Assembly: GCA_016209155.1 (NCBI GenBank)
Contig: JACQWU010000090.1
Location: 5,775-14,637, forward strand
DNA: 8,863 bases
From: Candidatus Desantisiibacteriota bacterium
GTDB lineage: Bacteria; JACRDZ01
Direction: 5' to 3'
The notes under the pieces are model-generated. The model searched no databases. It saw only the letters and a program-made list of their open reading frames with translations, and was not told the origin of the DNA. Below are positions 778-8,863 of the stretch, piece after piece; within the stretch, counting starts at the first letter, position 1, and each line of letters begins with the position of its first letter. The translations under genes and the position numbers were made by a program.

Positions 778-3031
778 AAAAATAAAACCGGTTTATATTG
801 AAGATGAGATGAAAAATTCTTATATAGATTACGCTATGAGCGTTATTGTGGGCCGTGCTCTTCCGGATGTCAGAGACGGGCTTAAGCCGGTTCACAGGCG
901 TGTGCTTTATGCAATGTATGAAATGGGGCTTTTTTCCAATAAACCCTACCGCAAGTCCGCGGCAGTAGTCGGAGAAGTAATGGGAAAATATCACCCGCAT
1001 GGTGATACTGCCATATATGATACTCTGGTACGACTTGTACAGGATTTTTCATTGCGTTATCCTCTTGTGGACGGACAGGGTAATTTTGGTTCTATTGACG
1101 GTGATTCTCCTGCGGCAATGCGTTATACAGAAGTACGAATGGAAAAAATTACGGCTGAAATGGTTAAAGACATTGATAAAGAAACCGTGGATTTTATGCC
1201 AAATTATGATGAATCTCTTTTGGAGCCCATGGTGCTTCCTTCAGTACTGCCAAATCTTATAATAAACGGTTCAACAGGAATTGCCGTTGGAATGGCAACA
1301 AATATTCCTCCGCATAATCTGGGGGAAATCATTGATGCGTTATTACTGCTTATAGATAATCCTGAAGCCTCAATTGATGATTTTATCTCAATTATTAAGG
1401 GACCTGATTTTCCGACAGGCGGTTATATATACGGAAAAAACGGAATAATTTCTGCTTACACAACCGGAAGAGGAATTTTAACGGTAAGAGGTGTTGTAAG
1501 TACCGAGCAGATAAAAAACAGCAAAGAGAATATAATTATCAGTGAAATTCCCTATCAGGTGAATAAAACTAAATTAATTGAGGATATTGCTCTTTTAGTT
1601 AATGAAAAAAAATTAGAGGGAGTGGTAGATTTAAGAGATGAATCTGACCGCGAAGGGATGAGAATTGTATTGGAATTAAAACGCGATCAGATACCTGAAG
1701 TCATTATAAATCAATTATATAAACACACCCAGCTTCAAAATTCTTTTGGTATTATTATGCTTGCTTTAGTGAATAATCAGCCCAAAGTTTTAAATATTAA
1801 AGAAGTTCTTTACTATTATCTGGAACACAGAAAAGAAGTGATTATCCGCCGCACACGGTTTGACCTTCGCAAGGCTGAAGAAAAAGCTCATATTCTGGAA
1901 GGATTAAAAATTGCTCTTAATAATCTGGATGCAGTTATTAAGACTATCCGCGCCGCAAGCGATCCTGCTGTCGCAAAACAGGAATTATGCGCTAAGTTTA
2001 AATTATCCGAAATTCAGGCGCAGGCTATTTTAGATATGAGACTGCAGCGATTAACAGGACTTGAACGGGAAAAAATCGAAAAAGATTATCTGGAAACAAT
2101 CAAGCTTATAGAATATCTGCGTTCAATACTTAGTAATCCGCAGATGGTTCTCGGTATTATTAAAAAAGACCTTGAAGAAATACGGGAAAATTATTCTGAT
2201 AAAAGACGGACGCAAATTGTTGAGGATGTGAAAGAGTTTAAAATTGAAGATTTAATTGCGGATGAAAATGTTGTCATCACTATTTCGCATGACGGCTACA
2301 TAAAACGTCTACCTGTAAGCTCATATCGCAAGCAGAGAAGAGGCGGTAAAGGTGTTACGGGGATGGAGACAAAAGAAGAGGATTTTGTTGAACATCTTTT
2401 TATTGCTTCAACTCATAATTATATTCTATTTTTCAGCGATAAAGGGAAATGCTACTGGTTAAAAGTTTATGATATTCCTCAGGCATCAAGAAACTCCAAA
2501 GGTAAAGCCATAGTAAATTTGATAAATATAACTCCGGGTGAAAAAATTCAAGCTTTTATACCGGTAAAAGAATTCACAGAAAGTATATTCCTTGTTATGT
2601 GTACCAAAAAAGGAATTATCAAAAAAACAAATTTAACCGAATACAGCAACCCCCGTACAAATGGTGTTATTGCCATAAATGTTGATGATGATGATGAACT
2701 TATATCAACCGTTCTCACAAATGGCAGTGAACAGTTAATACTTGCGACATATAATGGAATTGCTATCCGGTTTGCGGAAAGCGATGCAAGAGCAATAGGG
2801 AGAGTTGCGCGCGGTGTAAAAGGCATTAATCTTGAAAAAGATGATTTTGTAGTTGGAATGGAAATTGTAAAAGACACTGAAACCATACTTACCGTAACGG
2901 ACAAAGGATTCGGGAAAAGGACTATATTCGATGAATATCGCCTTCAGTCAAGGGGCGGACATGGTGTAATTAATATTAAAACAACAGACCGTACAGGTAA
3001 TGTGGTAAGGTGTAAAACTTATCAATCTTGA
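761..3031 (+). CDS. gyrA: DNA gyrase subunit A (frame broken near the C-terminus)
   Basis: GyrA cuts and rejoins DNA and wraps it through its C-terminal beta-pinwheel. The N-terminal winged-helix domain is intact: [21 protein letters not shown] (about 20-40), the [11 protein letters not shown] helix (78-88) and AAMRYTE with catalytic Tyr122. Numbering matches E. coli GyrA, so the quinolone-determining positions are Thr83 and Asp87; Thr83 is a common natural state in other bacteria. The GyrA box QRRGGKG at residues 525-531 separates gyrase from topoisomerase IV ParC. The pinwheel runs to [17 protein letters not shown]. After GNVV (codon ending 3007) the frame goes to RCKTYQS and stops, 756 residues in all. 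The true end continues in another frame to 3131. With about 35 missing residues restored the protein would be near 820 residues, the usual size. It follows gyrB in an operon. Confidence 0.95.
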
Positions 3032-3131
3032 TGAAAATGATAAAGTCGGCGCATTAGCCAAAATACCTCTTGAGGAAAGAGAAGTTCCTGATGCTCCTGA
3101 TGCTGATGAACCGGAAGAGGAAAAGCAATGA
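3009..3131 (+). pseudogene. gyrA: Out-of-frame authentic gyrA 3' end
   Basis: Reading from 3009 in the shifted frame gives [20 protein letters not shown], then a Glu/Asp/Pro-rich tail ending EEEKQ and TGA at 3129-3131. GV(R/K)LI-L-E-D-V---AK is the last strand of the final GyrA pinwheel blade, and an acidic tail is normal for GyrA. What is missing between NVV (3007) and GVKLI is roughly one blade segment (about 35 residues, corresponding to the stretch ending IGRNTQ in homologues). The implied deletion is 2 more than a multiple of 3 in length. Confidence 0.87.
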
Positions 3132-3205: not shown

Positions 3206-3502
3206 CTATAATACTCCTTTTAAAAATCCGGCAATGACTTGAAAGATAACGCCATTGTCCCATTCATAAATATCATTATGTCCTGCTCCGTAAACAGGCA
3301 TAAATTTCTTGGGGGCATTTGCTTCATTAAAAAGCTTCTCAGCAAGACTTATCGGTACTATTTCATCCCGGGTTCCGTGTATTCCCAATATTGGAATATT
3401 AACATTTTTTATTTTTTTTACAGAATCAAACTTTGTATTAGAAAATAAATATATAGGAATATAGGGAAACATTCTGGCTCCCATATCAGATGCGGAAGTA
3501 AA
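3206..3502 (-). pseudogene. Alpha/beta hydrolase, C-terminal part (separated by frameshift)
   Basis: This frame encodes FTSASDMGARMFPYIPIY, then the C-terminal half of a BEM46/YqiA-like serine hydrolase. VNIPILGIHGTRDEIVP contains the acid Asp (in GTRDEIVP), and VYGAGHNDIYEW contains the catalytic His (in GAGHND). It ends at a TAA at 3206-3208. FTSA-DM is normally the stretch after the nucleophile strand (typical ES-FTS---), so the piece belongs to the same gene as the N-terminal part at 3503-3879. An internal ATG at 3482-3484 gives a 92-residue open frame that should not be taken as a separate gene. Confidence 0.85.
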
Positions 3503-3879
3503 TCCGCTGCTCTGCCGTCTTTATACAATCCTTCTTCATCAGGTTTACCGGAACTTTTGCCATAACCTCTATAATCGAATGCAAAGACATTATATCCAAG
3601 TTTATAAAGATTAAAAATAATATCCATTCTTCCGGATATATTGCCGGCATTCCCGTGAAAATATATAATAACTCCGGCATTTTCCTGCTTTGCCGGAACA
3701 AAAATACCCCATAGAATCTCTCTGTCTTCTGTCCTGAAAAAAACTTCTTCGCAAGCTATATCTACTGAGGGAATTTTATCTATTTCTTTTGAAGGATAAT
3801 AAATAAACCCGGGCTCCATAAAACGCACAAAAACCAGGAACCCTAATAGTATTAGAATAAATCCAATGGCAATTTTCAT
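3418..3879 (-). pseudogene. Alpha/beta hydrolase, N-terminal part with membrane anchor; nucleophile region deleted
   Basis: The N-terminus, MKIAIGFILILLGFLVFVRF, is a hydrophobic anchor or uncleaved signal. Next come GFIYYPSKE, FHGNAGNISGRM (oxyanion-hole HGN motif, about residues 74-85) and FAFDYRGYGKSSGKPDEEGLYKDGRAA. These are hallmarks of the BEM46-like alpha/beta hydrolases, whose substrates are unknown. Homology stops around 3503; the 28 residues that follow in this frame, to the stop at 3418-3420, are nonsense. The expected nucleophile elbow (G-x-S-x-G) and roughly 45-55 residues are absent, and the C-terminal half resumes in another frame at 3502. As assembled, no active enzyme is possible. 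The start at 3877-3879 is supported by AGGAG seven bases upstream. The gene is convergent with gyrA. Confidence 0.85.
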
Positions 3880-6921: not shown

Positions 6922-7437
6922 TTATTCATCTTTATCAATATAACAAGTAAATCTGATATTCAATTGCTCAACCAACTGAAAATCATTTATCCATATAATC
7001 CCCATATTATCGCATACGTTAGGGATTTTAATTTTATTAGTATTTAGAGCTGTAATTTTTTCTTCTTTAGTAACAAGAATAGCATTTTCTTTCAAAGCAT
7101 GTGCAATTAACCAGGGATCTGCCAATGATCTTTGTTTTGTATTATCTACAAGTTTTTTATGTTCAGAATTTTTTGCGTAAATCTTTTTAAGACATTCTGT
7201 AACAGGTTGATCTACTTTATATGCTGGAATGTTACTTACTTTTAACCATTTTGATAAATCATCATCAGTTCTGACAATTTCTTCATATACCATTTGTGGA
7301 ATAAAGATTTTATCCTGCAAACCTAAATCATTAAGCACATCCCAATAATTTGGACATATTTTAGGCGAATAATATTTTTGCCACGCTTGAATAAGTACAT
7401 TCGCATCTAAACAATACTTTTTTGTTTGTAAGTTCAT
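6922..7437 (-). CDS. PIN-like nuclease of the DUF4411 type, putative toxin
   Basis: This 171-residue PIN-fold protein is probably a metal-dependent ribonuclease. The acidic residues expected in the active site are visible: Asp11 in YCLDANVLI, Glu52/Glu53 in VYEEIVR and Asp107 in LADPWLIAHAL. These are followed by AILVTKEEK (119-127), in the position where PIN domains carry their last acidic residues. KIPNVCDNMGIIWINDFQLVEQLNI is the usual C-terminal end of DUF4411 proteins, so length and ends look complete. Its ATG overlaps the stop of the upstream XRE/ImmA-IrrE gene (ATGA, 7434-7437), implying translational coupling; GAGGAG at 7449-7454 is 11 bases upstream. The pairing resembles a toxin-antitoxin operon with this protein as toxin. 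That role is inferred from family and order only; cellular target unknown. Confidence 0.85.
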   Translation of the reverse strand: MNLQTKKYCLDANVLIQAWQKYYSPKICPNYWDVLNDLGLQDKIFIPQMVYEEIVRTDDDLSKWLKVSNIPAYKVDQPVTECLKKIYAKNSEHKKLVDNTKQRSLADPWLIAHALKENAILVTKEEKITALNTNKIKIPNVCDNMGIIWINDFQLVEQLNIRFTCYIDKDE

Positions 7438-8606
7438 TTGTAAATTAGCTCCTCAAATTTTGAGAATTTATTCACCTGAGTATTTAATAGACTGCTGGCT
7501 AGTGTCGGCTCAATAAATCCGCCATAAAAAGCATCCAGTACAATTTGAGTAAACAATCTGCTGTTTTTATACAAATTAAGAAGATAATAACTTGGACCAC
7601 CTTTTTGTTTTTTTTGCCAAGCTTTCTTTTCTTCTTCATGTTTTAAAAAAGCTTGAAATTCTTTTTCTGCTTCTTTTTTTAAAATTTGATATTTATTTAA
7701 TGTAATTATCTGTAGATTAAAAGCTCTAACTAAAAATGAGAATGTGCTTACACCAAAAGTCTTAGAGATTTTAAAAATATCTTTAGCCGAGTTAAAAATT
7801 GTTAAATTAATTTTCTTTATTTCTTCAGCAGGTAATAAAACATTAGCAGCGACTTCATTGCAAAACAGTTCAATAGGATGAAGTTGATCTTTGTGTTTTA
7901 ATTCAGGTTCAATATCATTTGAAATTCCAGATTCAGCAATCCATATATGGGCTAATTCATGAATTAATGTAAAAAGCTGCGGGGCATTCCAATCGTTTGA
8001 ATTTACAAATACAAAAGGGGCATAAGGATCTGAAATTGTAAATCCCTGAATTTCTTCACAATCTAACTTTAACCTTGAATGAATAAAACTCGTTCTGGAA
8101 ATAAAAATTCCATGTAACTCTGCATTATAAATCCATTCTTTTATAGGATTATCAGTTGAATATTTCGGCGGATAAATTTTTAATGTATTAAGAATATCTG
8201 TAGCAACTTTTAAAGGATCATCTTTAATTGTGAATCTACCAATAAAAGGAAGAGGAGATTCTTTATCTTCTTCAAAAACTTCTCTTATCCATGCTTGTTT
8301 TTGCTGAATTTCTCTAATAATAAAAATAGATGCTGTACTCAATGGTTTTGCCTTCTTTGTCCTAAAGTCTTGTAAAGGTTGAAAATCTTTTGGAACTTCA
8401 GGTAAAAAAAATAAAGCAAAAGGTCTTCTATATGCTTTTGCTAACACTTCTGCCTGCCTAATTGAAGGCTGAGTGATCCCATCTTCCCACTCTTTTAACT
8501 TTTTAACTGATACATGAACTTTATCTGCGGCAGTTTCTTCGGAAATCCTGGCTGATTTTCTTGCCCATTTAAACACTTCGGGAGTTATATAGGCCTTATC
8601 TATCAT
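7434..8606 (-). CDS. XRE-family regulator fused to ImmA/IrrE-type metallopeptidase (putative antitoxin/regulator)
   Basis: This 390-residue two-domain protein has an N-terminal XRE helix-turn-helix at about residues 10-62 (ARISEETAADKVHVSVKKLKEWEDG...SIRQAEVLAKAY). A linker leads to a zinc-dependent ImmA/IrrE (DUF955) peptidase with HELAH at 216-220 and a likely third ligand Glu251 in CNEVAANVLLP. Residues 336-390 hold the family's conserved tail (GGPSYYLLNLYKNSRLF...VLDAFYGG). Members of this fused class bind their own promoter and often sit next to PIN/DUF4411 genes; ImmA and IrrE relatives cleave XRE repressors. Here it precedes and overlaps the PIN gene, the usual antitoxin-first order. 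AAAGG lies eight bases before the ATG (8604-8606). Its promoter contains a dyad suited to autoregulation. The gene is complete, with no missing catalytic residue seen. Confidence 0.92.
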   Translation of the reverse strand: MIDKAYITPEVFKWARKSARISEETAADKVHVSVKKLKEWEDGITQPSIRQAEVLAKAYRRPFALFFLPEVPKDFQPLQDFRTKKAKPLSTASIFIIREIQQKQAWIREVFEEDKESPLPFIGRFTIKDDPLKVATDILNTLKIYPPKYSTDNPIKEWIYNAELHGIFISRTSFIHSRLKLDCEEIQGFTISDPYAPFVFVNSNDWNAPQLFTLIHELAHIWIAESGISNDIEPELKHKDQLHPIELFCNEVAANVLLPAEEIKKINLTIFNSAKDIFKISKTFGVSTFSFLVRAFNLQIITLNKYQILKKEAEKEFQAFLKHEEEKKAWQKKQKGGPSYYLLNLYKNSRLFTQIVLDAFYGGFIEPTLASSLLNTQVNKFSKFEELIYK

Positions 8607-8654: not shown

Positions 8655-8670
8655 GTATCTTTTACGATAC
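8655..8670. promoter_or_regulatory. Candidate operator of the XRE/ImmA-IrrE gene
   Basis: GTATC-N6-GATAC forms a 16-bp dyad located just downstream of the -10 box of the - strand promoter, 49 bases before the start codon. The size and position suit an XRE dimer repressing its own transcription. The right regulator is inferred, not shown. Confidence 0.5.
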
Positions 8671-8710: not shown

Positions 8711-8725
8711 AATACGTAATTATGT

Positions 8726-8756
8726 GGGGTGCATCCCCGTATTTGCAAACCCCTAC
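8726..8756. repeat. GC-rich palindromic segment between divergent promoters
   Basis: GGGG-TGCAT-CCCC (8726-8738) is followed by the perfect palindrome TTTGCAAA (8742-8749) and CCCCTAC. It stands out against very AT-rich surroundings and separates the two divergent promoters. It may be a remnant of a small palindromic repeat; no second copy is in the window. Confidence 0.4.
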
Positions 8757-8785
8757 TTGAAAATATGTATGTTATATGATAATAT
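8757..8785 (+). promoter_or_regulatory. Promoter of the truncated right-edge gene
   Basis: TTGAAA (8757-8762) as -35, then TAATAT (8780-8785, 17-base spacer) or GATAAT (8778-8783, 15-base spacer) as -10. Either choice puts the transcript start at about 8790-8793, next to the ATG at 8795, so the mRNA would be leaderless or nearly so. No Shine-Dalgarno sequence precedes this ATG. Confidence 0.45.
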
Positions 8786-8796
8786 AACATACATAT
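8763..8796. promoter_or_regulatory. Perfect 15-bp-arm palindrome overlapping the promoter and start codon
   Basis: ATATGTATGTTATAT (8763-8777), a 4-base centre (GATA), and the exact reverse complement ATATAACATACATAT (8782-8796). It fills the space from the -35 box to the first two bases of the ATG, so a bound dimer (or pair of dimers) would block polymerase completely. It is a strong candidate operator for autoregulation by the gene that starts here. Confidence 0.7.
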
Positions 8797-8863
8797 GAAA
8801 GATACAAAACAAGAAATTAGCAAAAACAAAAAACAGATATTAGACATCTCTGAGCATATAAAT
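8795..8863 (+). CDS. Start of an unidentified gene, possibly a transcriptional regulator (runs off the window)
   Basis: There are 23 codons, open from ATG to the window edge: Lys/Gln-rich MKDTKQEISKNKKQ, then ILDISEHIN. K-x-x-IL-x-(I/A)-(S/A)-E-x-I is reminiscent of the first helix of TetR-type regulators, and a large palindrome at the start codon is what an autoregulated repressor would have. The sequence is too short for a family call, and translation start is uncertain because no ribosome-binding site is visible. Confidence 0.45.
   Translation, partial: MKDTKQEISKNKKQILDISEHIN

Follow-up and report, generated by a model that had tools for sequence, protein, structure and literature searches.

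An interrupted palindrome over the promoter and start codon of a truncated gene: a candidate operator

At the end of the stretch of DNA analysed here (the window, 8,863 bases), an exact interrupted palindrome directly follows a -35 hexamer, TTGAAA (8757-8762), and extends through the first two bases of an ATG start codon (8795-8797). We propose with moderate confidence that a homodimeric repressor uses this palindrome as its operator, that this repressor is most probably encoded by the truncated gene starting at the ATG, and that transcription of the gene is initiated 2-4 nt ahead of the start codon. The observations on which this proposal builds are the palindrome, the promoter match, the forced start codon, the lack of a Shine-Dalgarno sequence, the gene-like codons and the single copy of the site; the feature is real, well placed and of a familiar kind. 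If the proposal is correct, the site would be a compact operator of a near-leaderless gene, extending over the full distance between its -35 box and its start codon, and an example from a sparsely sampled bacterial phylum. After identification of the binding protein, the candidate operator could be used as a repressor part, although the principle is already familiar. The source genome (3.08 Mb in 352 contigs) is 79% complete, and one of its contigs contains the window as its right-hand portion; the features of the window are listed in Table 1.

Table 1. Coordinates of the palindrome, the overlapping gene elements and the divergent module.
Feature	Position	Strand	Remarks
-35 hexamer TTGAAA	8757-8762	+	consensus match only
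Interrupted palindrome, candidate operator	8763-8796	.	arms 8763-8777 and 8782-8796, centre GATA 8778-8781
Extended -10 element TG-A-TAATAT	8777-8785	+	hexamer 8780-8785; straddles the palindrome centre
Predicted transcription start	8791-8793	+	derived from the -10 position; 2-4 nt ahead of the ATG
5' end of truncated gene, MKDTKQEISKNKKQILDISEHIN	8795-8863	+	gene-like codon usage; ATG 8795 as sole standard start
GTATC-N6-GATAC dyad	8655-8670	.	just upstream of xre; role suggested by its sequence
XRE-ImmA gene (HTH and M78 peptidase), RosmerTA antitoxin-like	7434-8606	-	context, outside the operator
DUF4411 PIN-type gene, toxin candidate	6922-7437	-	overlaps the end of xre; context

Structure of the palindrome and its expected frequency

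The palindrome has the structure ATATGTATGTTATAT-GATA-ATATAACATACATAT and comprises 34 bases. A sequence-only reading of the region had described it as a perfect 34-bp palindrome with 15 exact base pairs per arm, located between the -35 box and the ATG; the arms are indeed exact over 15 bp each and the location is correct, but the four central nucleotides are not symmetric, and the element is strictly an interrupted palindrome. It is the sole hairpin in the window with arms of at least 10 bp and a loop of 3 to 10 nt, and its DNA fold has a predicted energy of -11.5 kcal/mol (z -7.6). About 0.002 such palindromes are expected by chance per 8,863 bases at the local GC content of 23%, and 0.0002 at the composition of the window. 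Arms of at least 15 bp were found neither in 2 Mb of sequence simulated with a local order-2 model nor in 1.5 Mb simulated with an order-1 model of a genome sample. A chance origin of the exact 15/15 arms is unlikely. A 245-kb sample of this genome contains five further hairpins with arms of at least 15 bp, which corresponds to roughly one perfect hairpin of this length per 40 to 50 kb, and some of these are dispersed repeats. Several causes thus seem to keep such hairpins in this genome, and symmetry by itself is no proof of an operator.

Promoter and start of the truncated gene

The promoter on the plus strand consists of TTGAAA, a 17-nt spacer and TAATAT with a TG ahead of it, and the extended -10 element lies within the palindrome (TGATAATAT). 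A consensus scan of the region found promoter-like sites at about the level of shuffled sequence (4 sites versus 2.9 expected), so the weight of the promoter call comes from its position; no other plus-strand promoter-like site was found between 8640 and the palindrome. An inverted repeat overlapping promoter elements, as expected of an operator, is present at 8763-8796. The signature of a terminator is lacking: the stem is AT-rich and a T run is found on neither strand.

The window ends with the last base of the contig, which leaves 23 codons of the gene visible. The frame has a stop codon, TAA, at 8780-8782; the codons after it read TAT AAC ATA CAT ATG, which leaves the ATG at 8795 as the only standard start codon of this frame within the contig. 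The codon usage of the 22 codons after the ATG scores at the 48th percentile of the real genes of the genome, and only 5.5% of open windows in wrong frames score as high; the truncated gene is probably real. A homologue of the 23 residues was found neither in plasmids and phages nor in PDB, Pfam, NCBIfam or 386 genomes. Matches to a MobA-like protein (G001) and a coiled-coil protein (G216) are weak and internal to longer proteins, and were dismissed as chance. Since the gene is cut after 23 codons, every conclusion is limited.

Inspection of the sequence ahead of the ATG revealed no Shine-Dalgarno motif, in agreement with the earlier statement that a ribosome-binding site is missing. Leaderless genes can be recognized by a TANNNT box around 12 nt before the start codon (PMC3160421). 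The second base of the -10 hexamer (A 8781) is located 14 nt before the ATG and the hexamer ends 9 nt before it, which places the gene at the outer edge of the range of about 8 to 14 nt that serves as a criterion for leaderless genes, together with the lack of a Shine-Dalgarno sequence. Together with the predicted, near-leaderless transcription start, the absence of this motif makes leaderless expression plausible. Shine-Dalgarno motifs are the usual case in this genome, as they precede a nearby start codon in 130 of 160 open reading frames and, in a second count, in 128 of 182; in the latter count, no set of genes stood out by a -10 box located at the ATG. A leaderless gene would hence be an exception. 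The former description of the gene as probably leaderless is supported by the promoter, the forced start codon and the missing Shine-Dalgarno sequence as far as a near-leaderless start is concerned, but has to be read against a genome that generally uses this motif.

Distribution of the palindrome

With up to 3 mismatches, the palindrome core occurs 17 times elsewhere in the genome, compared to 19 times for a reversed control, and a regulon, i.e. similar sites beyond control level, is not visible. For the same reason, a LexA/SOS box is not supported; LexA was not detected in the 79% of the genome available, and Pfam gave no match to the 23 residues. The 30 specified bases are absent, with up to 3 mismatches, from 385 other genomes, which include three of the same phylum, the inner 22 bases are absent from viral contigs, and a search against Rfam yielded no match. 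No orthologue of the truncated gene was found among the 386 genomes. One viral contig contains an 18-nt match, but the sequence around it is unrelated and lacks the palindrome, and plasmids and phages gave distant, A+T-rich DNA alignments with E-values of at least 0.1; both results were attributed to chance. A single copy in the genome and none in the 385 others is what would be expected of a dedicated local operator.

The divergent RosmerTA-like module

The nearest upstream genes encode an XRE-ImmA protein, which matches RmrA models (E 7.6e-20), and a DUF4411 protein. RosmerTA systems are toxin-antitoxin systems involved in phage defence, and ImmA domains are also associated with PIN-like domains in the respective network (PMC10440598). 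The pairing of an HTH-ImmA antitoxin with a toxin gene that characterizes RosmerTA is found in this module, where the toxin role is a prediction. The XRE-ImmA protein has 71 relatives with up to about 70% identity, mostly from Bacteroidota, and the DUF4411 partner is retained in 64 of them. In none of the 71 does a comparable AT-rich palindrome cover a promoter, and the four hairpins detected upstream have unrelated sequences and are located farther out. This argues that the palindrome belongs with the truncated gene and not with the module, and the link to a toxin-like module drawn in the sequence-only reading could not be upheld. Judged by its sequence and position, the GTATC-N6-GATAC dyad is more likely to be the xre operator than the 34-bp palindrome.

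The XRE-ImmA and DUF4411 pair (6922-8606) is 60-70% identical to copies in Bacteroidota, although the genome itself has few relatives, and such a pattern points to a likely horizontal transfer. In many of the Bacteroidota relatives (L041-L110), the ATG of xre is directly preceded, at a distance of 10-25 nt, by a box of the TTGTATTTTTG type, which suggests that the antitoxin gene may have a very short leader there.

A model for repression and alternative explanations

In the operator model, a repressor dimer would bind the palindrome and thereby span the region from the -35 box to the start codon, and the bound dimer would sterically exclude RNA polymerase. The truncated gene itself would most probably encode the regulator and would thus be autoregulated, and it would be read from the short transcript described above. 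The suggestion that the sequence acts as an operator on DNA agrees with its placement over a promoter, with the forced start, the missing Shine-Dalgarno motif and the gene-like codons; what we infer from these is protein binding, the identity of the binder, repression and the transcription start.

It had also been suggested that a transcript initiated upstream folds into a hairpin that hides the start codon. A strong RNA fold is predicted (-17.6 kcal/mol, z -8.0), which includes the first two bases of the AUG; however, the transcript of the best promoter is predicted to start inside the 3' arm, which would prevent the hairpin from forming, promoter-like sites around it do not exceed the shuffled level, with no second plus-strand site between 8640 and the palindrome, and the neighbouring gene is transcribed away from the site. 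Occlusion of the start codon in the RNA is therefore unlikely, and a dual-level switch, in which the same palindrome would act as DNA operator and as RNA hairpin silencing read-through transcripts of a leaderless gene, is very unlikely. Even less credible is a site for site-specific recombination. The loxP site has 13-bp arms and an 8-bp spacer, and the palindrome can be parsed in this way, but only these dimensions and the single copy fit: on either side, the symmetry extends by 2 bp into what would be the spacer, a recombinase gene is not in view, the element sits exactly over a promoter, and the contig is chromosomal (dnaN-gyrB-gyrA). We regard this explanation as extremely improbable.

Alternatively, the palindrome could derive from a mobile or palindromic repeat, as a solitary copy or as a remnant next to the gene start, either non-regulatory or co-opted later. 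The genome does contain palindromic repeat families (CTGAATCTTGCA...TTCAGATTCAG) and six matches to Y1 transposases, and a 22-nt REP-like motif present in eight copies (up to 3 mismatches) has one of them at 8727-8748, beside the palindrome. The palindrome, however, occurs once, has no sequence in common with those families and coincides exactly with the promoter and the ATG, which renders a repeat origin a rather doubtful explanation. The divergent arrangement of the genes raises the question of whether the XRE-ImmA antitoxin uses the palindrome as a second operator to control both directions, all the more as type II antitoxins recognize palindromic sites that overlap the promoters of their own genes (PMC4803016). 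Against this speaks that none of the 71 relatives has a similar site and that the palindrome is 157 bp away from the xre start, with the separate dyad being closer; this scenario is decidedly unlikely.

Comparison with known systems

Dimeric repressors, for example those of the TetR type, have autoregulatory operators. Like these, the operator proposed here is a long inverted repeat over a promoter beside the gene's own start, but its arms are unusually exact and long, and it is known from DNA alone. In restriction-modification systems, the controller proteins bind to palindromes in the promoters of their own (C) genes, and transcripts of C genes are often leaderless (PMC4824078). The palindrome at 8763-8796 resembles the C-boxes of such genes in being located in the promoter of the presumed regulator gene, with a predicted transcript start few nucleotides before the ATG; C-boxes, however, consist of two short dyads (GACT-N3-AGTC or CTAAG-N5-CTTAG) and are also activating, whereas the element described here is one long, unrelated dyad (PMC4824078). 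It also resembles the promoter palindromes of type II antitoxins (PMC4803016), but differs from these in that the truncated gene is not known to have a toxin or antitoxin, that the adjacent toxin-like pair runs in the opposite direction and that the relatives of this pair lack the site.

Further observations

The -35 box is abutted on its left side by a REP-like sequence tagged with GTAG (8725-8755, GTAGGGGTTTGCAAATACGGGGATGCACCCC on the minus strand), whose 22-nt core is GGGTGCATCCCCGTATTTG[CT]AA. GTAG-tagged REPs are reportedly an already described class. The REP core was not found in viral contigs, and neither the core nor the palindrome arm was convincingly located near Y1 transposase genes. 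Some copies of the CTGAATCTTGCA...TTCAGATTCAG repeats are located directly upstream of genes (L119:3824, L121:428, L124:10221, L128:17021, L129:2774 and L120:13414). Elsewhere in the window, the gyrA frame breaks near 3010 (3000-3131), with the C-terminal sequence seeming to run on in another frame to 3131, and a hydrolase gene on the minus strand (3206-3879) is split near 3484; both breaks are probably assembly indels.
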